Assembly: GCF_025397915.1 (NCBI RefSeq)
Contig: NZ_JALIDZ010000008.1
Span: forward strand, 124,001-188,000
From: Microbaculum marinisediminis
GTDB lineage: Bacteria; Pseudomonadota; Alphaproteobacteria; Rhizobiales; Tepidamorphaceae
Direction of reading: 5' to 3'
DNA: 64,000 nt
A program made the position numbers and the translations under genes. The notes beneath the pieces were generated by a model that was not told where the DNA came from, searched no databases, and was given only the letters and a program-made list of their open reading frames with translations. Positions 44,424-61,438 of this stretch are shown in pieces. Position 1 is the stretch's first letter. Each line of letters starts with the position of its first letter.

Positions 44424-45710
44424 TCACATCTGGGACGGCAGGAAAAGGACGAGCGCCGGAAACAGCGCGAGCAGCGCGACTCGAATGAAGTCGGCGACGA
44501 TGAAGGGGATCAGCGCCCTGAAGACGGGTCCGGGGGCGATGTTCCGGAACACCGACGTCAGCACGAAGACGTTCATTCCGAAGGGCGGGGTCAGGAGACC
44601 GATCTCGATGGTCACCACGACGATGATGCCGAACCAGATCAGGTCGAAACCCGCCGCGTCGATCAGCGGCAGAATGATCGGCATCGTGATGAACAGCGTC
44701 GAGAAGCTCTCGAAGAAGAAGCCGAGGAACAGGTAGAGCAGCACGACAATGAACAGCAGCATCGCCGGATGCGGGTCGATGTCGCCGATCCAGTCGGCGA
44801 GCGTTTCGGGCGCGCCGGTCATGGCGATGAAGTTCCCCAGGATCGTCGAACCGAGCAGGATGGGGAACAGGGCGCCGGTCGTGCGCACGGCGCCGAGGAA
44901 CGCATCCCGCAACACCGCCAGGGTCATCGCCCCCCGGATCCACGTGAGAAGCAGTGCGCCGGACGCCCCGATGCCGGCACCTTCCGTGGCCGTGAAAACG
45001 CCGCCGTAGAGCCCGCCCATGACCAGCACGAACAGGGCGATCACGCCCCAGACCTCGCGCAGGGCGCGCCACTTCTCGGACCAGGGAACGTACTCGCCGC
45101 GCGGCCCCGCATCCCGGTCGCGCGCGACGACGAAGCCCACCGCCAGGGTGTAGAGAACCATGCCCAACAGACCGGGCACGATGCCGGCCAGGAAGAGCTT
45201 GGCGATATTCTGCTCCGCCAGGATCCCGTAGATGATGAGCACGACGCTCGGGGGAATGAGGATTCCCAGGGTTCCGCCGGCGGCGATCGTGGCCAGCGAG
45301 AAGGACTCCGAATAGCCGAACGAGCGCATCGGCGGATAGGACACCTTCGCCATCGTGGCGGCGGACGCCACGCTGGACCCGGAAATCGCCGCGAATCCGC
45401 CCGACGCGAGAATGGCCGAGATCGCCAGCCCGCCGGGCATCCTGCCGATGAAGGCATAGGCCGCACGGAACAGGTCGCGGCCGAGCCCGCTGGAGGCAAC
45501 GAAATTGCCCATCAGCACGAACAGCGGAATGACGGTCAGCATGTAGCTGCCCAGCTCGAAAGCCGAGCCCGCCACCATCTTGCTGGAGACGGAGAAGCCC
45601 ATGTAGTGGGCGTAGCCGACAAACCCGATGATCCCCATCGCCAGCGCGACGGGGATCCGGATCAGGATGAAGCCGACAAGGGCAACGAGGCCGATGACGA
45701 ACTCAGTCAT
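44424..45710 (-). CDS. dctM: TRAP transporter large permease DctM
   Basis: A 428-residue inner-membrane protein with about 12 helices. Signature stretches are SGGFAAISGSSVASAATMAKVSYPPM, IAAGGTLGILIPPSVVLIIYG and EIGLLTPPFGMNVFVL. The ATG at 45710 overlaps the dctQ gene by 8 bases. It is followed 29 bases later by the ThDP enzyme gene, so transport and metabolism are in one operon. Confidence 0.93.
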   Translation of the reverse strand: MTEFVIGLVALVGFILIRIPVALAMGIIGFVGYAHYMGFSVSSKMVAGSAFELGSYMLTVIPLFVLMGNFVASSGLGRDLFRAAYAFIGRMPGGLAISAILASGGFAAISGSSVASAATMAKVSYPPMRSFGYSESFSLATIAAGGTLGILIPPSVVLIIYGILAEQNIAKLFLAGIVPGLLGMVLYTLAVGFVVARDRDAGPRGEYVPWSEKWRALREVWGVIALFVLVMGGLYGGVFTATEGAGIGASGALLLTWIRGAMTLAVLRDAFLGAVRTTGALFPILLGSTILGNFIAMTGAPETLADWIGDIDPHPAMLLFIVVLLYLFLGFFFESFSTLFITMPIILPLIDAAGFDLIWFGIIVVVTIEIGLLTPPFGMNVFVLTSVFRNIAPGPVFRALIPFIVADFIRVALLALFPALVLFLPSQM

Positions 45711-46215
45711 CCTCGGCCTCGTCGTCGGTGGGACCGGCCACGACGGCATAGGCCGCCAGGGCCGCCGAAAGGATCAGGGTCAGGGCGATCGTCCAGGCCA
45801 CGGCCGCGACCGGCAGTCCCAGCACGAGGGTGACCTCGCCGGACTTGCCGGCGGCCAGCCCGATCATGGCGATGCCCATTCCCGCGAGTGCCATCGCGAT
45901 CGCCACGCCCGACACACCGTCGATCGTTCGCTTGAGCCATGACACCCGCTTCAGGACCGGGTCGATAAGGGTGACCCTTATGTGATCGTTGCTGGCAACG
46001 GCGACCGCGATGCAGAGATAGATCATCACCTGCATGGCCATCTCGGTGACCTCGAAGCCGGCGGCGATCGGCCGCTGGAACGCGTACCGTGCCCCGACAT
46101 CGACTACGGTCAGCAGCATGATCCCCGCGAGGATGAGCGCCGCCGCATATTCGAGTGCCTGCACGACACGTCGCCATACCAGCCGGATCCGGCCGGATTG
46201 CTTCGTTGAAGTCAC
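45703..46215 (-). CDS. dctQ: TRAP transporter small permease DctQ
   Basis: A 170-residue inner-membrane protein with four hydrophobic helices (about 22-42, 60-78, 100-120 and 135-155) and the DctQ-type stretch RYAFQRPIAAGFEVTEMAMQVMIYLCIAVAVASNDHI. It has an acidic C-terminal end (DDEAEDD). It is placed between dctP and dctM, overlapping dctM. Confidence 0.9.
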   Translation of the reverse strand: MTSTKQSGRIRLVWRRVVQALEYAAALILAGIMLLTVVDVGARYAFQRPIAAGFEVTEMAMQVMIYLCIAVAVASNDHIRVTLIDPVLKRVSWLKRTIDGVSGVAIAMALAGMGIAMIGLAAGKSGEVTLVLGLPVAAVAWTIALTLILSAALAAYAVVAGPTDDEAEDD

Positions 46216-46245
46216 GCTGGGTCGCCCTGCGATCGCGATGAACCC

Positions 46246-47280
46246 CTATTCGGCGTTCATCTTCTCGATCTCGGCGCGGAGGTCAGCCAGAGCGGCGGCG
46301 GCGTCGATCTTGGTATCTTCGACCGACTTTGCCCAATCCGCTTCGAGCGGGCTGATCGAGGCGCGGATTTCCTCCACGAACGCGTCCGGGGCCTGATGCA
46401 CCTCGCCGCCCTTCTCCTCGTAGATCTTCCAGCCGCGGGCATCGGCCTCGTCGGATGCACGGCCGGCGATCCGCGAGAAGGTCTCGCCGGTCACCTTGGC
46501 CAAAGCCGCCTTTTCCTCGTCGGTGAGGGCGTTGTACTTGTCCTCGTTCATGACCAGGGCGAAGCTGGCGTTGTAGAAGCCGCCGGGAGCCGAAACGACG
46601 TTCTGGATCAGGTCCTCCAGCCGCCAGCCGCCGAAGACGTCGGCCGGCATGAAGGCACCATCGACGATCCCGCCGTTCAGCAGCTCGTACAGCTCCGAGG
46701 CCGGACGGGACACCGGAGCCGCACCGAGGACGGTGGCGAGCTCGAACGCCATGCCGCCGGGCGCGCGCAGCTTCTGGCCCTGCAGCGAGGCCTTGTCCAG
46801 ATAGGCGGTCTTCGGCGACATCAGATGGCCCGGGCCCGGCGTGAACATCGCAAGCGGCACGACGCCGTCATGTTCGTTGGCATCGGCCAGGCTGCGCTCG
46901 AAGACGCGCTGATAGGCCACCGAAAGCGTCTCGGCATCGTTCGCGAGCAGCGGGAATTCGGCGATCTTGGTCAGCCGGAAACGACCAGCGTTGTTGCCGT
47001 GGGAGATGAAGCTGATGTCGACCAGGCCATCGCGCACGCCGTCGAACGTCTGGGCGGCGCCCATGGGCGCCTTGGGCAAATAGCGGATCTTCAGCAGGCC
47101 GCCGGATTCACGCTCGACCATCTCGGCCCAGTCGTTCTGCATGAGTTGCGTGAAGTGATGCTTGGGCGGCGTCCAGCCCGACACGGTCAGCACCGTCTGG
47201 GCCGCGGCCGAACCGGACACGCAGACCGTCAGGAAAGCGGCCGCCGCGGCAACCGATATGGTCTCAAACAAAGATTTCAT
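46246..47280 (-). CDS. dctP: TRAP transporter substrate-binding protein (DctP family)
   Basis: A 344-residue periplasmic receptor with signal peptide MKSLFETISVAAAAAFLTVCVSGSAAA before QTVLTVSGW. TPPKHHFTQLMQNDWAEMVERESGG and LQGQKLRAPGGMAFELATVLGAAPVSRPASELYELLNGGIVDG are typical of the family. It is the first gene of the operon dctP-dctQ-dctM-ThDP enzyme-aldehyde dehydrogenase. The ligand may be a 2-keto acid or aromatic acid (inference). It is different from the receptor at 25.9 kb. Confidence 0.9.
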   Translation of the reverse strand: MKSLFETISVAAAAAFLTVCVSGSAAAQTVLTVSGWTPPKHHFTQLMQNDWAEMVERESGGLLKIRYLPKAPMGAAQTFDGVRDGLVDISFISHGNNAGRFRLTKIAEFPLLANDAETLSVAYQRVFERSLADANEHDGVVPLAMFTPGPGHLMSPKTAYLDKASLQGQKLRAPGGMAFELATVLGAAPVSRPASELYELLNGGIVDGAFMPADVFGGWRLEDLIQNVVSAPGGFYNASFALVMNEDKYNALTDEEKAALAKVTGETFSRIAGRASDEADARGWKIYEEKGGEVHQAPDAFVEEIRASISPLEADWAKSVEDTKIDAAAALADLRAEIEKMNAE

Positions 47281-47352
47281 GGTCTTCCTCCTTTACGATT
47301 GGATCGCGCAAGGCAACCGTGATCCGCGGCTTGCCCTTGCGTTGTTTCGTCT

Positions 47353-48225
47353 CTATCCGCACGCGCCGACGGACCTGCCGGACCGACCGGCAAGATCCCG
47401 AAAGGCCCGGTACCAGTCGTCATTGCGGCTGTTCAGCCGCAAATGCGTGTCGAAGTGCCCCGCACCCGGCTCGATAGTGCTGGTGATGGGCTGGCCGGCG
47501 TCGCGCAAGGCGTCGCACATCCGCGCGTTCGAATCGCGGATATGGTCGAAATCGTTCTCGCCCCACATGAGGTGAAACGGCGTTCGATTGCCGGCGAGCG
47601 CGCATATCGGGCTCGCGCCGGCATCGTCTTGCGCCGCGCGGAACAGAAATCGGTACACCCGCCCCTTGCCGGTGTCGGACGCGACCCCGCCGTAGCGCAG
47701 ATCCATCGGAGCGCTGACCGGCATGCACGCGTGGACCGGCGCGGCCTGCCGGGACAGAACGGTCATGGCAGCGATCTGGCCGCCCGCCGAATGCCCGCCC
47801 AGCACGATGCGATCGGGATCGCCGCCATAATCGGAGATCCGCGCCTGGATCGACCGCAATGCGCCGATCCCGTCTTCCAGCTGGCTGGGCCATTTGTGAT
47901 CGGGGGCCAGACGATAGGTGACGGCGGCGAATATCGCGGGCTGCGCGACGACGGCCTCGGCCATGAACCGCAGCCATTCGAACCCGCCGGCAATCCAGGC
48001 GCCGCCATGCAGGAACACGAGAACGGGCAGATCGTCGCCGCGGGCAGCACCGGCCGGCACATAGAGCTCGACCGCCTCGGCCGGGTCGTCGCCGTAGCGC
48101 AGCACCGCCTCGGGCGTCAGCGTCGACGCGTCGGACAGCGCGCGCGCCCGACGATCGTAGGCCATCGCGTCATCCGTCCCCGAAAAGGCCGGCTCTGCGG
48201 CGCACGGCACGTCTTTACCCGACAC
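47353..48225 (-). CDS. Alpha/beta hydrolase (HSL/kynurenine formamidase-like)
   Basis: A 290-residue hydrolase. The oxyanion motif is VLVFLHGGAW (HGG), the nucleophile elbow is GGHSAGGQIAA with Ser about 144, the acid is Asp in WGENDFDHIRD and the His is in GAGHFDTHLRL. No signal peptide is seen. The layout YDRRARALSDAST...LYVPAGA resembles kynurenine formamidase-type esterases. It is 72 bases upstream of the TRAP operon on the same strand and may share its regulation. The substrate is unknown. Confidence 0.85.
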   Translation of the reverse strand: MSGKDVPCAAEPAFSGTDDAMAYDRRARALSDASTLTPEAVLRYGDDPAEAVELYVPAGAARGDDLPVLVFLHGGAWIAGGFEWLRFMAEAVVAQPAIFAAVTYRLAPDHKWPSQLEDGIGALRSIQARISDYGGDPDRIVLGGHSAGGQIAAMTVLSRQAAPVHACMPVSAPMDLRYGGVASDTGKGRVYRFLFRAAQDDAGASPICALAGNRTPFHLMWGENDFDHIRDSNARMCDALRDAGQPITSTIEPGAGHFDTHLRLNSRNDDWYRAFRDLAGRSGRSVGACG

Positions 48226-48407: not shown

Positions 48408-50453
48408 TCACGCCTTGCGGTCCGGGCCGAAACGGACGACGCGGAGCGTCCGCCCGCCACCGACGCGCGGAAGGGCCGGTTTCGGCGGAGGAACGAAGTT
48501 GCCGTCCTCGGCTGCGCCCCACGCGTTGACCGCCACCCGGTCGCCGCTCTGGCCGGCGGCGAGCCTTCCGGCGATCCATCGCGCCGCCTGCGGCGCGGCG
48601 ACGCTCGTCCCGTTCAGCGCCACGAAGGAGCCGCTGCGCGATCCGGCGCTGAGCACGCCGCGCAACACCGGGGTATCGTCGCTGACCGCCGCGGCGTCGG
48701 GTCCGGTCCGGTTCGGGTTCACTTCGTTGAACGCTGCCGTGATCGGGCCGGCGGCGGAATAGTCCGCCAGCTCACCGGTCGCTTCGACGAAGCCGGCGAG
48801 CACCGAAGGCCGTTCGCCGCAGGCGAACCCGCTCAGCGTCGCGCTCCGCTTGACCGGGCAGGTGGATCCTGGCGGGTCCGTCGGCAGGGGCGCGCCGAAA
48901 GCATCGAACCGGACATAGCAATCGTTGTCGAAATACGACTGGCGGCCGAAATGGGGGAAGCCGGGCAGCGTCTCGTCGCGACGGATCCAGACCCGGACAG
49001 GCTCCGTCTCGGTCAGCGAGCGGTTCTTGATCTCGATTTTCCAGACTCCGGCCGGCGCGACGGTCGCCGGATCGTCGTGGCTATAGGTCGGCAGGGCGCT
49101 GACGGTCACGAGGCCGCGTCGCGTCGGGTGCGGCTGAAAGGCATACCAGAGCCGGCCGACAATGCTGTTCTGGCCCGACAGCAGATCATGGGCCGACCCG
49201 GGGGAGGTGACGACGGGATCGCTCCGCGGCCCGCCGGCCGGCGTGACCCGCACCTCCACCATATCCGCCGGATTGTCCCGGTACGGCAGCCAGATCTCGA
49301 CGTAGCTCGCCGACAGGTCGTCGGGCTGGATACGCCAGTCGAGCTCCGCCACGTCCCCTTCGTTCCGGAACCGGATCTCGGCGTGGGCCCGGGCCAAATT
49401 GCCGTTTCCCGCCGGCAGCGTCACCTGCCGCTCGTAGGGGGCATTCGGCCGGAGCTTCTTGTCGATCATGCGCTCCACCACGCCGGTACCGTCGTGGGGG
49501 CCCGCGAAATTGCCGTAGCTGAAATTGACGACGAGCGGGACCCGCCGGCCCGGATCGCCGGGGAAGCGGAAGCGCCGCACCTGCTTCTTGATGAACTGGA
49601 TCGCCAGCCCGAGGAGCGGCGACAGATCCGCGCCGGTGACGTCCATCGTCACCTCCGTGGGTAGCTGCACGCACACGATCGGCCGCGTCTCGTCTATCTG
49701 GCCGGGAACATATCCCGCGGCGATCCCCATGACATGGGTTCCGTGCGAGACGCGCAGGGCGGCGGGCTTGAAGCCCGGAACGGCATAGTCGATCAATCCG
49801 GCGTCCCGGTAGAACCGATCCTCGTCCAGCAGGCCGGCCATCATGTTGGTGGCCAGCATCCCGTCGATCTCCCCGCCGGTCAGCGCGCGGCCCTGCGGCA
49901 CCGCAAGCGCCAGGGCGGGGTCCGGCGGCGCGTCCATGATCCAGCACGCCGCAACACGCGATTTGTCGAGCTGCGACGTGCGAAACAGCTCATGCGCGAA
50001 GGCGATACCGTTGTCGATGACGGCCGTAACAACGGTTCCGTCCGGCACCTCGATCTCGGGCAGGCCGGCGGCCAGGGTCTCGGCCCCGAAGTCGATCACG
50101 CCCGGCGGAGCGATCGTTCCCAGCACGATCCGGTTCACGCCGAGTTCGTTGTTGCGGTCGTTGGCCTCGCGGATCAAGACCTCCTTCGCATAGACGGTCG
50201 GATACTGGAGCCGGGGAGTCGCCTCCCGGTCTTCCTTTCCGTAGAGGCTGGGAACGAACAACGATCCCTTGAGGTCCTCCCTGGCATCGACCGCCCTGAT
50301 CAGATCGTCCAGCGAGGTGTCCTCGAGTTCGAAGAGGACGCTCCACCAGGGGTCCTTGAGGCCCGGCTTGAGCTGGGTCGCCAATGTCAGGCGGAAATCC
50401 GCGATCGGATTGACGATGTCCTCGGGCTTCTTCTCGTTGTGCCAGCGCAACAT
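48408..50453 (-). CDS. Subtilisin-like serine protease (S8), no signal peptide
   Basis: A 681-residue S8 family protease. The triad is Asp147 in VVTAVIDNGIAFAH, His237 in RVSHGTHVMGIAAGY and Ser617 in VALNGTSVAAPQAARWIAG; the oxyanion Asn is in LPAGNGN. Large extra segments separate the His and Ser regions. There is a long N-terminal extension of about 135 residues without secretion signal or membrane helix, so it is probably cytoplasmic or released by another route. It lies 33 bases after the GGF-PAP2 gene and ends the three-gene set with the cyclase. Its target is unknown. Confidence 0.88.
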   Translation of the reverse strand: MLRWHNEKKPEDIVNPIADFRLTLATQLKPGLKDPWWSVLFELEDTSLDDLIRAVDAREDLKGSLFVPSLYGKEDREATPRLQYPTVYAKEVLIREANDRNNELGVNRIVLGTIAPPGVIDFGAETLAAGLPEIEVPDGTVVTAVIDNGIAFAHELFRTSQLDKSRVAACWIMDAPPDPALALAVPQGRALTGGEIDGMLATNMMAGLLDEDRFYRDAGLIDYAVPGFKPAALRVSHGTHVMGIAAGYVPGQIDETRPIVCVQLPTEVTMDVTGADLSPLLGLAIQFIKKQVRRFRFPGDPGRRVPLVVNFSYGNFAGPHDGTGVVERMIDKKLRPNAPYERQVTLPAGNGNLARAHAEIRFRNEGDVAELDWRIQPDDLSASYVEIWLPYRDNPADMVEVRVTPAGGPRSDPVVTSPGSAHDLLSGQNSIVGRLWYAFQPHPTRRGLVTVSALPTYSHDDPATVAPAGVWKIEIKNRSLTETEPVRVWIRRDETLPGFPHFGRQSYFDNDCYVRFDAFGAPLPTDPPGSTCPVKRSATLSGFACGERPSVLAGFVEATGELADYSAAGPITAAFNEVNPNRTGPDAAAVSDDTPVLRGVLSAGSRSGSFVALNGTSVAAPQAARWIAGRLAAGQSGDRVAVNAWGAAEDGNFVPPPKPALPRVGGGRTLRVVRFGPDRKA

Positions 50454-50486
50454 GGCAACGCCCTCCCTTCAGCGATCCGCCCCGCC

Positions 50487-51716
50487 TCAGGCCCCCTCGT
50501 CCACGAGATCGAGCCACTCCTGCTTCGCGTGGTGCCAAAGCCACGCGAGCGGCGCGGAGCGAAGATCGTTGGCATCCAGTGCCGAGGTCGTTTCGGTGGC
50601 CCAGTCGTCCTGGCCGGTCTGGGTTTCGGTGGCCGTGTTGTAGAGCAGCGTCCAATCGAAATCGGCGGTGGCGGGATATTCGGTCCCGTTGAAGGTCCAT
50701 CCCTTCAGCGCATTGCCGAGACTGGTGCACCGGCCGGCGAAATAGACACCGAGCGTGAGTCCCAGGATCGCGCCGGCAACGCTGTCGACGGGGAAGTGTA
50801 CGCCGGCGACGGTGCGGTTGATCGCGATCCGCGCGGCCTGCCGCATTAGCATGACGGACCAGATGGTGTCGTCGTAGGGCACGACGCCTGCGTCCCGGAG
50901 CAGCAGCAGGAGAGTGCGCGCGAGCGTGAACGACTCCGTGGCGTGACCGCTGGGCAGCGACCCGTGGGTCGGCGTCAGGATCATCGGCTGGATCTGCGGC
51001 GAGAACTCGATCGGCCGCTTGCAGGCAAGTGCGTACTTGAACCGCATCTCGACGAGGTTGGCGAGCCCCTGCGCCACCGACAGAAGCTCTATCGTGTAGG
51101 GGGTCCGGGATGGATTGATATACGCGATCGACCGCAGGAACTCGGTCGGCGTAGCGAGTTGCGAGATGACCTCCGCGGCGCGATCCGGCCGCAGGTCGGC
51201 GTAGTTGGCGATCAGGTTCAGCTGAGCCTTGAAGGTCGCCATCGTGGGACGGATCAGCGTCGCGAGCGGTTTGTACGCCGCGTCGGGCGGCACCAGCCCG
51301 GTCCCGCCCTGCGTCAACTGCAGGTGCCAGACATGGGCCGCGCCGGTGTCGGCGCCTGTCGGCTCGAAGGTATAGCCGAGCCGCGAGGCCAGTTCGAACA
51401 TGAACAGACTGCCGCGCACGGCCGGCGAGAGTCGACCGAGATACGCGTCGTACTCCTGTTCGTTCTCCTGGATGGCGGCGGTGACCGGTATCCAGGTGCC
51501 GGCGATGCCGTCGCGATTGGTGATCAGGGCATTGACGACGAGCGGCGAGTCGAAGGCCGGCGCGCCACCGAATCCGCCAAATCCCCCGAAGCCACCGAAC
51601 CCACCAAATCCGCCAAAACCGCCGAAGCCGCCAAAGCCTCCGAAACCACCAAATCCCCCGAAGCCTCCAAAGCCCCCAAACCCACCTTCCGGCGATGCGG
51701 ATTCCGGACCAGTCAT
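50487..51716 (-). CDS. PAP2/vanadium haloperoxidase-fold protein with (GGF)13 tract
   Basis: A 409-residue protein. Residues 11-49 are thirteen GGF repeats after MTGPESASPE. The rest is a PAP2/vanadium-dependent haloperoxidase-type domain: motif 1 KYALACKRP (Lys227, Arg234), motif 2 LPSGHATES (255-261) and motif 3 NRTVAGVHFPVD (Arg301, His307, Asp311). These residues bind phosphate or vanadate. There is no signal peptide and no run of membrane helices, so it looks like a soluble haloperoxidase-like or phosphatase enzyme. It is between the cyclase (50-base gap) and the protease (33-base gap). Enzyme activity and the role of the tract are unknown. Confidence 0.87.
   Translation of the reverse strand: MTGPESASPEGGFGGFGGFGGFGGFGGFGGFGGFGGFGGFGGFGGFGGFGGAPAFDSPLVVNALITNRDGIAGTWIPVTAAIQENEQEYDAYLGRLSPAVRGSLFMFELASRLGYTFEPTGADTGAAHVWHLQLTQGGTGLVPPDAAYKPLATLIRPTMATFKAQLNLIANYADLRPDRAAEVISQLATPTEFLRSIAYINPSRTPYTIELLSVAQGLANLVEMRFKYALACKRPIEFSPQIQPMILTPTHGSLPSGHATESFTLARTLLLLLRDAGVVPYDDTIWSVMLMRQAARIAINRTVAGVHFPVDSVAGAILGLTLGVYFAGRCTSLGNALKGWTFNGTEYPATADFDWTLLYNTATETQTGQDDWATETTSALDANDLRSAPLAWLWHHAKQEWLDLVDEGA
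51570..51686 (-). repeat. Thirteen 9-base units encoding GGF
   Basis: The pattern GGN GGN TTY is repeated 13 times in frame within the PAP2-like gene. The units differ at nearly all third codon positions, so the DNA is less regular than the protein. This argues for selection on the peptide rather than very recent slippage. Low-complexity Gly/Phe tracts resemble FG-rich or adhesive sequences. Confidence 0.95.
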
Positions 51717-51766
51717 GGCGCCCTCCCTTGGCTCTATCCTCGGCCTGTCTATGCCGCCGTGTCTGC

Positions 51767-53587
51767 CTACGGCGGCAGACCGGCCTGCTTCAGCGTTTCG
51801 GCGAACTCGCGCCCGATCTTGAATGACGCGCTCGGTGAGGTCTCAAGCCACCGATGGACCGTCAGATCGGGTTGTCGCGTGAGAAGTTCCTGGACCGTCA
51901 GCTTCGCTTCCGGGGCCTTGCCGAGGCGCATCTCGGCGACCGCCTTGACGCGCAGCGTCGACGTATGGGCCCGGTTCGAGCGTAGCGACAGTTTCGAAAG
52001 TTCGAGCGCGCGCTCGTAGTTCTCCGCGGCGACGGCGGCCGACGCGGCAAGCGACAGGTAGAAATACCTGTGCGGGTCGATCGGCGACAGGTGCAGGGCC
52101 AGCTCCGTGTCGCTCATCGCCGCCTCGCCCTGCCCCTTGAACGCGTAGAGCGTGCCCCGCAACAGCCGCCCCATCGCGTCGTTCGGGTTGTAGTCGAGCG
52201 CCATGTCGTACCGGTGCTCGGCCTCGTCGAGCCGATGCGCCAGATTGGTCAGGGCGAAGCCCTCGGCGACCAGCGCGGGAACGTTCGTGGGATCGTAGTC
52301 CAGGGCGTTTTGCGTGCACTGAAGGGCCAGGGCCGTCTCGCGGGCCGGCGAGTCCGTCCAGCCCTGCTGCACGGAAAGAACGTGCCACTTGGCCTTCCAC
52401 GCCAGGGCGGTCGCCGGCTGGCTGGACGACCGCTGTATCAGTTCCTCCAGCAGTTCGCCGGCATAGCCGAAATGGCGTCGTGACAGCCTGTGGATCAGGC
52501 CGACGGCGCTCATCAGCAGCGAATAGGCTTCCAGCGTCTGCATCGGGCTGGACAGGGCAAGCTGCATCTCGGTGCGAAGGATCGCGTTCTGGCAATCCTT
52601 GGCGATCTGATAGATGGCGGCCGCGTCCTTCAGCAGGTCGGGCACGCTCTCGCTGATCCGGCTCGACCAGATCACCCGGCCGCTCTTCACCTCGGCAAGC
52701 TCGATATCGAGAACGACGTGATCGCGATCGCCGCTATAGGTGCCGGACAGGACGAAGTCGGCCTTCAGGGTTTGTCCGATCTGGGCCAGCGGACTTTCTC
52801 GCATCCGGAAACCGGTCGTCGACAGGCGGGAAATAACGTTCAGTTCCGACGAGCGCGACAGGGCGACGATCAGCTCCTCGGCAAGCACCTCGCCGAGCGT
52901 ATAGTGGTCCCGCGACCGGCTGCGCGGCGCGAACGGAATGACGGCGACGGTGGGGAGAAGGTCCTCGTACCGAAGCAGCGGTACAACGCTGGGATGCGTT
53001 CCTATCGGGTGAACCCGGAATGCGCGCACCGGATGAGCGACGTTCTTAAGATGACACTCGCCGATATCCTCGAATTCTGCATCGAGTTCGTTCGACAGCG
53101 CATCGCGCACTTCGGCGGTCGCGACGATCTCACCCGGGCGGGCGACGGACATCAGGCGCGCGGCGATGTTGACGTGCTGACCGTAGAGGTCGTTGTCCTG
53201 GGTGGTGAGCACATCACCCACATCGATACCGACGCGCAGATGCATCTTGCGGCCGGAGGGAAGCGAGGCGTTCACGTGGTCGAGTTCGACGGTGATCGCG
53301 AACGCGAAGCGCACCGCGTCGGCAACCTCTTGGAACTCCGCGAAAATTCCGTCGCCCAGGTTCTTGACCAGCCGGCCGCGATGCTCGGGCAGAAGGTCCG
53401 CCTGCACACGCTCGAGGAGAGTCAGCCAGGAGCGAATGGCATCGTCGTCGTCTGTCTTGAACAGCCGCGCCGACCCGACGACATCGGCGAAGAGCACGGC
53501 CTTCGCCCTGCTTTCCATCTTGTCGAAGAGACCGTCGATTTTCGAGTTCTCAGGGGCTGCTCGCATCGCACAACTCGCTACGGGCAC
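51767..53587 (-). CDS. Class III adenylate/guanylate cyclase with TolB-like and TPR regions
   Basis: A 606-residue protein. The cyclase domain covers about 28-200. Metal-binding Asp35 (LFADVVGSARLF) and Asp79 (NLGDGIFAEF), the base-contacting Lys75 and Asp133 (DLYGQHVN), and transition-state Asn140 and Arg144 (NIAARL) are all present, so it should be active. Residues of about 215-330 (TVAVIPFAPRSR, then VLSGTYSGDRDHVVLDIELA) resemble a TolB/FlgO-like region. About 370-590 are TPR-like repeats (ALDYDPTNVPALVAEGFALTNL, ALDYNPNDAMGRLLRGTLYA). No transmembrane segment is visible. Alternative starts are Met8 and Met24. It heads the set with the GGF-PAP2 protein and the S8 protease. Confidence 0.9.
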   Translation of the reverse strand: MPVASCAMRAAPENSKIDGLFDKMESRAKAVLFADVVGSARLFKTDDDDAIRSWLTLLERVQADLLPEHRGRLVKNLGDGIFAEFQEVADAVRFAFAITVELDHVNASLPSGRKMHLRVGIDVGDVLTTQDNDLYGQHVNIAARLMSVARPGEIVATAEVRDALSNELDAEFEDIGECHLKNVAHPVRAFRVHPIGTHPSVVPLLRYEDLLPTVAVIPFAPRSRSRDHYTLGEVLAEELIVALSRSSELNVISRLSTTGFRMRESPLAQIGQTLKADFVLSGTYSGDRDHVVLDIELAEVKSGRVIWSSRISESVPDLLKDAAAIYQIAKDCQNAILRTEMQLALSSPMQTLEAYSLLMSAVGLIHRLSRRHFGYAGELLEELIQRSSSQPATALAWKAKWHVLSVQQGWTDSPARETALALQCTQNALDYDPTNVPALVAEGFALTNLAHRLDEAEHRYDMALDYNPNDAMGRLLRGTLYAFKGQGEAAMSDTELALHLSPIDPHRYFYLSLAASAAVAAENYERALELSKLSLRSNRAHTSTLRVKAVAEMRLGKAPEAKLTVQELLTRQPDLTVHRWLETSPSASFKIGREFAETLKQAGLPP

Positions 53588-55892
<2,305 letters not shown>

Positions 55893-55896
<4 letters not shown>

Positions 55897-56183
55897 GCGA
55901 GACCGACGGCCCGAACGAATCCGGCAAGCTGGCGGAAGCCGCCCGGCGGGCCGCCGCACGCACGCAAGGGGCGCGCGAGGATCCCGAACCCTCGCTCGGA
56001 ATGCGGTTCGGGCAGATCGGTATCCTCGGCTGGACCATCGTCGTACCGACGCTGGTCGGCCTCTTTGCCGGGCGATGGCTCGATCGGGTATTCGAGACCG
56101 GCGTGTTCTTTTCCGCGCCCTTGCTGATGCTGGGGGCGGCTTTCGGTTTCTGGTCCGCATGGAGATGGATGCACAGGCAATGA
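55893..56183 (+). CDS. atpQ: N-type ATPase membrane subunit AtpQ
   Basis: A 96-residue protein. The N-terminal half is hydrophilic and Ala/Arg-rich; two membrane helices follow (about 44-60 and 68-90): ILGWTIVVPTLVGLFAGRWL and FFSAPLLMLGAAFGFWSAW. This is the AtpQ pattern, related to AtpI-type proteins. The GTG start overlaps the atpC stop. It is characteristic of N-ATPase operons. Confidence 0.85.
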
Positions 56184-56464
56184 GCGCATCGACCATGTCC
56201 CTGATCGCCCAGTCCGGCCTCGGGCTGCTCGTCGGCCTCGGCGTCGGCGCCGTGCACTTCGGGTCGCTGTGGTGGAACACGCAAATCTTCGCGCGATCAG
56301 GGTCCATGGTCATGGCGCTCGCCATCCAGTTCGGCCGGTTTGGCCTGCTGGCCGCGGTCTTCGTCCTCCTGTCGCGGCTGGGCGCGCTGCCGCTGCTGGC
56401 CGGCGCACTGGGACTGCTCGTTGCCCGTCAGGCCGTCATCAAGCGCGTGGGACCCGTCGGATGA
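56180..56464 (+). CDS. atpR: N-type ATPase membrane subunit AtpR
   Basis: A 94-residue hydrophobic protein with three predicted helices: LIAQSGLGLLVGLGVGAVHF, MVMALAIQFGRFGLLAAVFVLL and LPLLAGALGLLVARQAV. Its position between atpQ and atpB is the hallmark of AtpR. The ATG overlaps the atpQ stop (ATGA); an earlier in-frame ATG at 56159 is possible but less likely. Confidence 0.85.
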   Translation: MSASTMSLIAQSGLGLLVGLGVGAVHFGSLWWNTQIFARSGSMVMALAIQFGRFGLLAAVFVLLSRLGALPLLAGALGLLVARQAVIKRVGPVG

Positions 56465-57168
56465 CCGCATCTCCCTTCGTCCTCGAACCGGTCTTCCACA
56501 TCGGCCCGATGCCGATCACCGCACCGGTGCTCGTGACCTGGGCGATCATGGTGCTGCTGGTCGCCTTCTCTTTCATCGCCACACGCCACCTGTCGCTTCG
56601 CCCCTCCAGGGCCCAGGCGGCGCTGGAGCTTCTCGTCGACGCCATAGACGGCCAGATCCGCGACACGATGCAGGTCGCCCCCGCCCCCTATCGGGCACTC
56701 ATCGGCACCATCTTCGTCTATGTGCTCATCGCCAACTGGTCCTCGCTGGTGCCGGGGGTGGAACCGCCGACGGCGCATCTGGAGACGGACGCGGCCCTTG
56801 CCCTGATCGTGCTGGGCGCGACCGTCTATTTCGGCATCCGCACCCGCGGTCCCGCCGGCTATTTCAAGACGTTCGCCGAACCGACATGGGTGATGATCCC
56901 GCTCAACGTCGTCGAGCAGTTCACCCGCACCTTCTCCCTCATCGTGCGTCTGTTCGGAAACATCATGAGCGGCGTCTTCATCATCGGGATCATCCTGTCG
57001 CTCGCCGGCCTGCTCGTACCCATTCCGCTGATGGCGCTCGATCTGCTGACCGGCACCGTGCAAGCCTATATTTTCGCGGTCCTGGCGACGGTTTTCATCG
57101 GCGCGGCGGTGAGCGAGACGCAATCCGGCCGATCCGACGGCGACGACCAACCACGAGGCAAGTCATGA
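56461..57168 (+). CDS. atpB: N-type ATPase Fo a subunit
   Basis: A 235-residue membrane protein. The essential arginine is in TFSLIVRLFGNIMSGVFIIG, the strongest mark of subunit a. GTIFVYVLIANWSSLVPGVEPPTA lies near the middle. Overlaps with atpR (ATGA) and atpE at both ends show translational coupling. Confidence 0.93.
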   Translation: MTASPFVLEPVFHIGPMPITAPVLVTWAIMVLLVAFSFIATRHLSLRPSRAQAALELLVDAIDGQIRDTMQVAPAPYRALIGTIFVYVLIANWSSLVPGVEPPTAHLETDAALALIVLGATVYFGIRTRGPAGYFKTFAEPTWVMIPLNVVEQFTRTFSLIVRLFGNIMSGVFIIGIILSLAGLLVPIPLMALDLLTGTVQAYIFAVLATVFIGAAVSETQSGRSDGDDQPRGKS

Positions 57169-57410
57169 ACTGGATCGAGATAGTCAGCATCCTCGCGGCC
57201 GCGATCGCCGTGTCGTTCGGCGCGATCGGGCCGGCCCTGGCCGAAGGGCGCGCGGTGGCCGCGGCGATGGACGCGATCGCGCGCCAGCCGGAGGCCGCCG
57301 GGACGCTGTCGCGCACCCTGTTCGTCGGCCTCGCGATGATCGAGACGATGGCGATCTACTGCCTTGTCATCGCCTTGCTCGTGCTGTTCGCCAACCCGTT
57401 CGTCCAGTAG
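57165..57410 (+). CDS. atpE: N-type ATPase Fo c subunit
   Basis: An 81-residue hairpin membrane protein. The loop ARQPEA (39-44) joins two helices. In helix 1 Glu27 (GPALAEGRA) stands where Na+-type c subunits have Gln; in helix 2 the sequence is MIETMAIY with Glu60, Thr61 and Tyr65. This set (carboxylate in helix 1, ET and Tyr in helix 2) is expected for Na+ coupling. Ion choice is predicted, not shown. Confidence 0.93.
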   Translation: MNWIEIVSILAAAIAVSFGAIGPALAEGRAVAAAMDAIARQPEAAGTLSRTLFVGLAMIETMAIYCLVIALLVLFANPFVQ

Positions 57411-57423
57411 CGGCGGTCGGGAC

Positions 57424-58153
57424 ATGCGGATCGACTGGTGGACGCTCGGGCTCCAGGCGATCAACGCGCTGGTCCTCGTCTGGCTGCTGAGCCGGTTCCT
57501 GTTCAAGCCGGTCGCCGATATCCTCGCCAGGCGACAGGCCGCCGCGGACCGGATCGTCGATCAGGCCGAGGCCGCGAAGGCGGCCGCGGAAGACGAAAAG
57601 GCGAAGGCGCAGGCCGAAGCCGCCAGGCTCGCCGCAAGCCGCGGTGACGCCCTGAAGCAGGCCGGCGAGGAAGCCGAGAAGCGGAAGGCGGCCCTGATCG
57701 CGACGGCGCGCGAGGAGGCCGACAAGATCCGCTCGGAAGCGGAGAAGGACATCGAGCGCGCGCAGGCCGCCGGTCAGCACAAGGTCGCAGAGAAGGCCGG
57801 CAGCCTGGCCGTCGACATCGCCGCCCGGCTGCTCGACCGCCTTCCCGACCAGGCGCGCGTCGCCGGCTTTGTCGATGGCCTGGCGGACGGCGTCGCCGCC
57901 TTGCCGGACGACATCCGTGCCGATCTCGGCGCCGACGGGACGCCGTTGCAGATCGCCGCGGCGCGACCGATGACCGACCGCGAGCGATCCGATTGCCGGG
58001 ACGCGTTGAAGAAGGCGCTGGACCGGGATGTCGAGATCGCCGTGTCCGTCGATCCGAAGCTGATTGCCGGCCTGGAGCTGCGCGGGCCGCACGCCGAGGT
58101 TCGCAACAGTTTCCGGGCGGACCTCGACCGTCTGCTAGCCGACCTGAACCGCC

Positions 58154-58173
<20 letters not shown>
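57424..58173 (+). CDS. atpF: N-type ATPase b subunit, long form
   Basis: A 249-residue protein with one N-terminal membrane helix ([23 protein letters not shown]) and a long Ala/Lys/Glu coiled coil (about 35-130). The C-terminal 110 residues ([20 protein letters not shown] onward) are extra compared with ordinary b subunits of about 160. As no delta gene exists in this operon, this part may replace delta; that is inference. It overlaps atpA by 20 bases. Confidence 0.9.
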
Positions 58174-59700
<1,527 letters not shown>

Positions 59701-59704
<4 letters not shown>

Positions 59705-60576
59705 CCGAACGGCTGAACGACGTCGAACAGCGCATGGGCAGCGTCCATCAGCTTGAACTGGTGATCACGGCCATGCGCGGCATCGCCGCCTCCCGGTCGC
59801 GCGAAGCCCGGGCGCGGCTTGCCGGCATTCGCGCCTATGCGGACACGGTCGGCAACGCAATCGGCGAAGCACTCGCCCTTCTGCCCGCCTCCGCGACTGC
59901 CGCCGAACCCCGACACGGTACCGGGGGCCGCATCGTCATCGCCCTGTGCTCCGAGCAGGGCTTCGCCGGAACCTTCAACGAGCGGGTGCTCGCCGCCGTC
60001 GAGCGCCATACGCAGGCTGCGGACGGCGCGCCGACCGACCTGCTCCTGGCAGGTGATCGCGGGCTCATGGTTGCCGCGGAACGTGGGCTGTCGGTCGGTT
60101 GGTCGGCACCCATGGCGGCCCATGCCGACGAAGTGCCGTCGCTCGCCAATCGATTGGCCGACGCCGTCTATGAGAGGCTGTCGGCAGGGGCGACCCGCGC
60201 CGACATCGTTCACGCCACCCCGGCCTCGGGTGGAGCAATCGAGATCGTGGACCGGGCTCTGGTTCCGCTCGATTTCGGCCGCTTTCCCGTCTCGCCTCGC
60301 CTGGTGCCACCGCTGGTCACGCAGGAACCCGGGACGCTTGTCGCGCAACTGGCCGAAGAGTACCTGTTCGCCGAACTGTGCGAGGCGATCATGGTGTCGT
60401 TCGCGGCCGAGAACGACGCGCGGATGCATGCCATGATCGCCGCCCGCGACAACGTCGACGAGAAGCTGGACGAGCTGACCGCCGTCTACCGCCGCCTGCG
60501 CCAGGAAGAAATCACCAACGAGATCGTCGAACTGGCCGCCGGCGCCACCGCCGAACAGGAGTCCGGCCTCCGTTGA
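59701..60576 (+). CDS. atpG: N-type ATPase F1 gamma subunit
   Basis: A 291-residue protein with the N-terminal rotor helix ([20 protein letters not shown]) and the long C-terminal helix ([24 protein letters not shown], then [26 protein letters not shown]). The central [19 protein letters not shown] is typical. It is the last gene of the operon. Confidence 0.92.
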
Positions 60577-60859
60577 GCCCGCTTGCGACGATGGAGCGGC
60601 CGGTTTTCCACAATCACGGAATTCGGTGCGTCACGACACGCCAAATTTACGGGTCGTTATCCACGACCGACGCAGGATGCAGAGACGGATGGCTGCCGTA
60701 CGGTGTGCGGCGGGCGACCGTATTCGTGTGCGGCGCAGCAGACCGCTGTAATGCCGCAGCTTCATTGATCATGGATAACAAGGCCAGAAGGGTCAGATTG
60801 CGAAGTGCGGCAGCGTTCGCCGCGGGGCTATCGAGGCTGGAGGCGGAGGCCAGTCGAGC

Positions 60860-61438
60860 ATGACGAATCATCCCTACACATGGGTTCAGACGGCGCGCGG
60901 CGGCGCCTTCGACCTGCTCGAGCCGACTCCCGAGCAGGTACATCCCGCCGACCTGGCCGAGCACCTCGCCAAGATCCCCCGGTTCGCCGGCGCCACGCCG
61001 AATATCGTGATTTCGGTCGCCCAGCATTCGGTGTTCGTCGCCGAGGCGCTGCCACGCGACCTTCGCGCCTACGGTCTCCTGAACGACGGCCACGAAGCGT
61101 ATCTCGGCGACGACCAGGGCCCGAAAGTGAACGCGATGACCGTGCTCGCACCGATGGCACTGGCCGCTGTTCGTCAGCTGCGGTTGCGCGCCGCCGCCGC
61201 CATCCACACCCGCTTCGGCCTCGCCTGGCCTCCGCCGGTCGAGGTCGCCGCCGCCGTCAATCGGGTCGATGCCCGCGCGCTCGCTGCGCAGAAGCTTCAC
61301 TTCATGGCGCCGGAGCCGCGGCCATGGATTTCCCTGCCCGAGCCGCTGCCGGATGTCGGCAGCCCCTGGTCCTGGACCGAGGCGGCCGAGCGGTATTACG
61401 AGACGCTCAAGCGTTATGCGCCCGAGTGGCCGTCATGA
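60860..61438 (+). CDS. HD-superfamily phosphohydrolase-like protein with altered HD motif
   Basis: A 192-residue protein similar to small HD-type hydrolases (YfbR-like and phage homologs). His56 (VAQHSVFVAEAL) is the first metal ligand and LLNDGHEAYLGD follows at 73-84. The motif usually reads LLHDxxEAYLGD; here His is Asn75 while Asp76, Glu79 and Asp84 remain. A ligand is therefore lost and activity is uncertain. SLPEPLPDVGSPWSWTEAAERYYET near the end is also typical. It stands alone between the ATPase operon and the flavin monooxygenase. Confidence 0.78.
   Translation: MTNHPYTWVQTARGGAFDLLEPTPEQVHPADLAEHLAKIPRFAGATPNIVISVAQHSVFVAEALPRDLRAYGLLNDGHEAYLGDDQGPKVNAMTVLAPMALAAVRQLRLRAAAAIHTRFGLAWPPPVEVAAAVNRVDARALAAQKLHFMAPEPRPWISLPEPLPDVGSPWSWTEAAERYYETLKRYAPEWPS

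Follow-up and report, generated by a model that had tools for sequence, protein, structure and literature searches.

What is a perfect tripeptide repeat doing on a soluble enzyme encoded between a signalling protein and a protease? The question is raised by three genes at positions 48408-53587 of a 64,000-nucleotide stretch of contig NZ_JALIDZ010000008.1 from Microbaculum marinisediminis (this whole stretch is the window below). They code for a class III nucleotide cyclase with TolB-like and TPR parts (the regulator), a PAP2-superfamily enzyme with a (GGF)13.7 array (the array-PAP2) and a divergent S8 subtilase. Based on the behavior of this array across homologous loci, we propose that the three genes probably constitute a self-matched module, in which the array is a ligand fitted to the regulator of its own locus and the protease acts with them.

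A conserved three-gene module

The three open reading frames lie on the minus strand, separated by exactly 50 and 33 bases, just as in the original prediction, which had been made from the DNA letters alone. The regulator matches the Pfam models of the class III cyclases (PF00211, 1.8e-14) and the FlgO/TolB-like domain (3.6e-6) along with TPRs, and inspection of its sequence bears out the complete cyclase active site claimed earlier, with both metal Asp residues, the Lys/Asp pair, Asn and Arg all present. The middle protein (Pfam PAP2, 3.7e-13) has every expected motif, namely KX6RP, PSGH and NRX5HX3D, and its K227, R234, P255, H258, R301, H307 and D311 are invariant across 81 homologues. It had been labelled a PAP2/haloperoxidase, and the first half of that label is the better supported: its core is structurally closer to the class A non-specific acid phosphatases (7f17, 1d2t), with which it has the PAP2 fold and motifs in common, than to the vanadium haloperoxidases, which share its active-site motif but match it weakly in structure (TM about 0.3). 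Unlike the class A enzymes, it is intracellular as far as can be seen and carries an extra N-terminal region in addition to the array. The protease scores only 1.6e-4 against Peptidase_S8 because its sequence is divergent; its D147/H237/S617 triad and N350 are invariant across 73 homologues, and it is without a visible secretion signal, as had been predicted. Its nearest relatives in fold and sequence are the Csp germination subtilases (CspB, CspA/CspC; 4i0w, 9pr8), CspB being the best match to its model (TMt 0.76), and like them it has a subtilase fold with an inserted beta domain; it differs in its full catalytic triad, the lack of a spore context and its position beside an array-PAP2. Domains, residues and fold thus place the three products among the class III nucleotide cyclases, the PAP2 superfamily and the Csp-like S8 subtilases, respectively.

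The original prediction took the genes for a functional set, which rare adjacency in other genomes would have called into question. Instead, S8 and PAP2 occur together in 17 genomes of the window's order, where S8 is found in 19 and PAP2 in 18 (about 1 expected by chance; Fisher 1.6e-24), and they are adjacent in the loci read within that order. Across 201 distinct PAP2 homologues, S8 adjoins PAP2 in 195, on the same strand in 163 and on the opposite strand in 32. Upstream of PAP2 lies a TolB-TPR regulator whose N-terminus is a cyclase, an OmpR-type winged helix or a SARP-type domain; in one further clade of about 55 loci a SARP-like regulator is divergently transcribed. This variety indicates that the cyclase is only one of several outputs and not an obligatory one. 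The set is patchily distributed and is found on plasmids too: among sampled genomes, PAP2 relatives are present in 18 of 297 from the order, 7 of 385 from the class and 87 of 395 from the family that holds the Rhodobacteraceae loci, and a scan of genome contigs yielded more than 500 relatives, of which 80 were kept, chiefly from Alphaproteobacteria and Burkholderiales. The three genes are therefore a real, conserved functional module.

No fourth gene is universal among the loci, and no transporter is conserved among their recurrent neighbors. Several genes recur in subsets: a genuine vanadium bromoperoxidase (7e-103 to PDB 5lpc) close to array-PAP2 and S8 in 14 loci (e.g. L041:5117-7339), an animal-type haem peroxidase (PF03098) likewise close to the two in 12 (e.g. 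L044:1113-2639) and a 257-residue protein without a Pfam match upstream of the regulator in 19 (e.g. L033:12910-13683). On the Parasedimentitalea plasmid pW43B (L022) the set is apparently decaying, with PAP2 and S8 broken into several open reading frames and no array found. A record titled Oceanobacillus sp. HTM 045 (L126) holds an alphaproteobacterial-looking locus that matches G680:C942 of the Rhodobacteraceae-type family; the record is probably mistitled or its assembly a mixture.

A response to stress or infection had been suggested earlier, along with a check for occurrence in defence islands. An anti-phage or stress-defence operon of the Pycsar kind would be in keeping with the patchy, partly plasmid-borne distribution and with the match of the cyclase to PycC models (3.8e-10). 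However, that match is confined to the generic cyclase domain, regulators without a cyclase are common, and no cyclic-nucleotide-gated effector belongs to the gene set of the window or recurs in the neighborhood. PADLOC returned only generic cyclase and cyclic nucleotide-binding matches; apart from the latter, the neighbors of the loci match no defence system, and no PAP2 homologue was found in phage records. Neither the phage-defence link nor the stress or infection response gains support from these data, and we regard such a role as improbable.

The array is a selected protein sequence with a freely changing unit

A perfect tandem peptide stands at the N-terminus of 196 of the 201 distinct PAP2 homologues, the remaining five including fragments and one degenerate repeat. 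These arrays use 100 different units of 2-6 residues, such as GGF, GGA, SAY, NAY, NSQ, HEG, GKM, GQ, SG and GGGA, in 3-20 copies without any spacer between them, with a median array length of 28 residues; glycine makes up about 40% over the units, and silk- or elastin-like units are found in many loci. In the window, the GGF tract noted in the original prediction is real, but it is N-terminal (residues 11-51) and not an end tail. The array stands right at the start of the protein, inspection shows no signal peptide, and an AlphaFold model has the array disordered and the core confident. Comparable arrays are rare in the other proteins of the same loci (about four among some 1370 neighbors, 221 S8 and 144 TPR proteins), a contrast far beyond chance. 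Partner proteins with an identical array were also sought outside the locus, and none turned up in G000, G160 or G285. Arrays are often broken once by a turn-like SGS, NGS or TGS between perfect half-arrays (L050-L055, L086, L094, L202).

The uniformity of the copies is under purifying selection. Only 29 of 1853 copies are imperfect, and the contrast between a pS of 0.81, at which synonymous sites are saturated, and a pN of 0.021 establishes the array as a selected protein sequence and excludes recent slippage as the cause of its uniformity. Neutral DNA slippage in a linker would account for the excess of identical DNA units two apart (62 vs 35 +/- 5.7), which does indicate that some 18-base duplication occurs; selection against identical adjacent DNA units was looked for and not seen. 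As an explanation of the arrays themselves, however, slippage is contradicted by the codon data, by their near universality and by their covariation with the regulator, described below, and it can be given practically no credence.

Uniform as the copies are, the unit itself turns over often: a tree of 104 PAP2 cores requires at least 60 unit changes. Cores 85-91% identical may bear wholly different arrays, and closely similar cores (89-91% identical) carry (SGF)11 vs (SGL)11 and (GGV)12 vs (GGI)12. Paralogues within one genome never share a unit (0 of 20 pairs), but with chance sharing at only 1.8% this is uninformative on orthogonality. A perfect repeat under selection, in which the sequence is free and repetitiveness is fixed, is highly unusual; it would be explained by a matched receptor. 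We found no enzyme with a perfect array of such short units (2-6 residues) described in the open full-text literature.

The TPR domain of the regulator covaries with the unit

For 116 loci with a regulator, we compared unit similarity with the identity of each of the three proteins, the effect of the other two being partialled out. It is the TPR protein that goes with the unit (partial correlation 0.296, or 0.463 for cyclase-type regulators alone), whereas S8 (0.016) and PAP2 (-0.13) do not and serve as negative controls. After removal of near-duplicates the correlation is 0.28, a value attained in 0 of 500 permutations. Against a range of 0.28-0.30 for TPR, the two controls are also put at -0.01 (S8) and -0.11 (PAP2). 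The strongest columns, in the numbering of the window regulator, are 444, 450, 482, 475, 448, 479, 512 and 516, all of which fall in TPR helices; 448, 482 and 516 are spaced by 34 residues, the TPR period, and so occupy equivalent sites of consecutive TPRs.

The same association emerges from a phylogenetic pair test whose tree uses just the PAP2 and S8 sequences. The unit register was set by rule for period-3 arrays, other periods being left out. Column 444 changes with glycine at unit position 1 in 11.4 independent pairs in the same way and 0.1 in the opposite way, a score of 11.3, against a mean of 1.3 (sd 1.2) for 320 TPR columns and 4.3 for the best of 410 S8 columns. Phe444 is present in 63 of 69 loci with glycine at unit position 1 and in 2 of 44 without it; it predicts this glycine at 0.93, better than does the locus closest in PAP2 and S8 (0.69-0.86). 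Where relatives at least 55% identical differ at unit position 1, residue 444 follows in 29 of 29 pairs, which overlap and are non-independent. At unit position 2, alanine goes with Ala or Ser475 in 20 of 26 loci and glycine with Leu475 in 70 of 78, while serine goes with Ala512/Gly516 in 8 of 9, a pairing that spans cyclase, winged-helix and SARP-type regulators. A physical reading of the first rule is that Phe444 packs over the side-chain-free Gly1 and yields once a side chain occupies that position of the repeat.

The original prediction had regarded the array as a potentially condensing tail. Such a self-associating element would suit its disorder, its glycine content, the silk- or elastin-like units and the SGS-type interruptions in mid-array. 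Yet units as physically dissimilar as HEG, GKM, NSQ, GRA, ENW, DF and MG occupy the same position, and self-association leaves the covariation with the regulator unexplained; we consider it a poor candidate. Given the nearly free composition of the unit and its covariation with the TPR groove, a ligand is the better reading of the array.

The protease is obligate but changes class

One PAP2-bearing genome (G035) lacks S8, its slot being filled by an eqolisin (Peptidase_A4). Relatives are found in 66 of 196 genomes of one genus; 52 loci were read there, 5 of them belonging to the type of the window. Arrays are present in all but three of these 52, with units such as AGN, TGN, GGY, poly-Gly, DGGG, EGGG, GGNWF, DF, ADG and MG, and 51 have a protease beside PAP2: an eqolisin in 22, a papain-like C70/C39 protease in 7, an S8 of the classical, non-window type in 9 and one of the window type in 5, whereas in 8 loci the PAP2-adjacent slot holds a putative, convergent HExxH metallopeptidase recognized by its motif only, with no family match. 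The exchange of unrelated proteases in one slot suggests that proteolysis itself is needed. The loci with these other proteases represent a sister family (L283-L329, L048, L049) in a genus sampled from the window's order; its shorter array-PAP2 proteins follow a cyclase or winged-helix TolB-TPR regulator and adjoin proteases of four classes.

A model for the module and its alternatives

In light of the above, we posit that the N-terminal array of PAP2 is a disordered, multivalent ligand that would lie in the TPR superhelix groove of its own regulator. Every TPR may read the same tripeptide, in which case all copies must be identical, and the unit could be almost any short peptide provided that the groove changes along with it. 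Array binding, or removal of the array by the neighboring protease (S8 in the window, unrelated proteases in the sister family), would switch the output domain of the regulator, i.e. cAMP synthesis in the window and DNA binding in other loci, and this output would in turn control the PAP2 enzyme and the protease. Three of 55 sampled neighbors have cNMP-binding domains. The protease might act by freeing the regulator, by generating peptides or by trimming a surplus. Contact between array and regulator, cleavage of the array, the direction of control, the PAP2 substrate and the biological trigger are the parts of this scheme that we infer.

Several points weigh against this proposal. Covariation is a demonstration of matching and not of contact. 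It is absent (partial correlation -0.12) in 56 loci with the divergently transcribed SARP-type regulator; power is low there because these loci diverge strongly (median identity 28%, with hardly any unit occurring twice), but the matching rule may hold only for co-transcribed regulators. It is hard to picture specific ligands in units as simple as (GQ)n, (SG)n and poly-Gly. Finally, the specificity-pocket columns of S8 show no covariation with the unit, which leaves unit-specific cleavage unsupported by coevolution. The last point would be expected if the array served for docking only, tethering PAP2 to the regulator and thereby bringing the enzyme to its target, either the regulator itself or what the regulator makes, with the protease a co-regulated passenger or housekeeper. 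The TPR-unit covariation requires nothing beyond binding, but the replacement of one unrelated protease by another suggests that proteolysis belongs to the function, and docking alone appears rather unlikely.

The same absence of pocket covariation counts against a peptide-pheromone polyprotein, in which the protease would cut the array into identical short peptides read by the TPR regulator. Identical copies and species-specific units are typical of repeat-peptide precursors, some class of protease always lies beside the array, and the TPR receptor covaries with the unit. The RRNPP/RRNPPA systems (Rap-Phr, PlcR-PapR, NprR-NprX; PMC10075063, PMC11343458) likewise combine a TPR receptor with a swappable output domain and an adjoining peptide-ligand gene; their ligands are matured by proteases of several families, including extracellular ones, ligand and receptor diversify together, and some propeptides hold tandem pheromones, up to four copies being known (PMC11343458). 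As in RRNPP systems, the regulator and ligand genes of the window are adjacent (a 50-base gap, with the order kept in most co-transcribed loci), and the regulator has TPRs, by model matches, whose columns covary with the unit. The differences are equally marked: the regulator has 606 residues and a TolB domain, against the 250-500 residues used as the receptor size criterion (PMC10075063); in place of a small (10-100 residues) secreted propeptide there is a 409-residue enzyme, with no signal peptide by inspection, to which a perfect repeat of 2-6 residue units is fused; the protease lies inside the locus; and the hosts are Proteobacteria, not Bacillota. The 3-20 spacerless copies, the di- and tripeptide units such as GQ, SG, MG or poly-Gly, the fusion to an enzyme, the absence of a visible signal peptide and the lack of a conserved transporter neighbor, together with the absent pocket covariation, make the pheromone reading unlikely, if marginally less so than docking alone.

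Returning to the array as a ligand matched to its own regulator, class III adenylate cyclases with a TolB-TPR C-terminus and OmpR-type winged-helix-TolB-TPR regulators have the same architecture as the regulators here, but a cognate repeat ligand in the next gene is not described for them in the literature searched. Nor did we find a description of this gene set or of a matching code in the open full-text literature, which is not proof of absence. If binding is confirmed, about 100 natural unit/groove pairs would provide a readable code for TPR peptide recognition and a source of orthogonal binding pairs, as well as a function for a cyclase/regulator family common in rhizobia and marine Rhodobacteraceae. 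A more ambitious possibility, toward which we lean somewhat skeptically, is a natural recognition code of more than 100 units in Proteobacteria, with an orthogonal repeat ligand and matched receptor per locus and a switch operated by interchangeable proteases; in its strongest form, the released peptides might be species-specific signals, a Gram-negative counterpart of the RRNPP pheromones.

Features of the locus and its surroundings

Table 1. Features of the array-PAP2 locus in window coordinates
Feature	Position	Strand	Basis or remark
Regulator: class III nucleotide cyclase, TolB/FlgO-like, TPR; 606 aa	51767..53587	-	Pfam; most loci have a homologue in this slot
Cyclase catalytic domain, residues 30-182	53042..53500	-	Pfam; OmpR-type winged helix or SARP-type N-terminus instead in other loci
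FlgO/TolB-like domain, residues 213-309	52661..52951	-	Pfam
TPR domain, about residues 400-570	51878..52390	-	Pfam
TPR helices, residues 440-520, with unit-covarying columns 444, 448, 450, 475, 479, 482, 512, 516	52028..52270	-	Covariation
Phe444 codon; Phe444 tracks Gly at unit position 1	52256..52258	-	Covariation
Array-PAP2: soluble PAP2-superfamily enzyme with N-terminal repeat; 409 aa	50487..51716	-	Pfam, homologues, structure comparison
(GGF)13.7 array, residues 11-51; 12/13 DNA units distinct; predicted disordered	51564..51686	-	Array analysis, model
PAP2 catalytic domain, residues 214-325	50742..51077	-	Pfam, invariant residues
Csp-like S8 subtilase, no signal peptide seen; D147, H237, N350, S617; 681 aa	48408..50453	-	Pfam, homologues, fold
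S8 N-terminal alpha/beta domain, residues 1-115; possibly a prodomain	50109..50453	-	Prodomain-like in position and secondary structure

Terminator-like sites are no commoner in this region than in shuffled sequences, with none between the three genes, and no known RNA family was found in it. Downstream, on the same strand as the gene set, lie TRAP-transporter-like genes and an alpha/beta hydrolase (44424-48225). Upstream of the regulator, an operon of the ATP synthase type runs divergently on the plus strand (53930-60863), with its beta subunit at 53930-55432.

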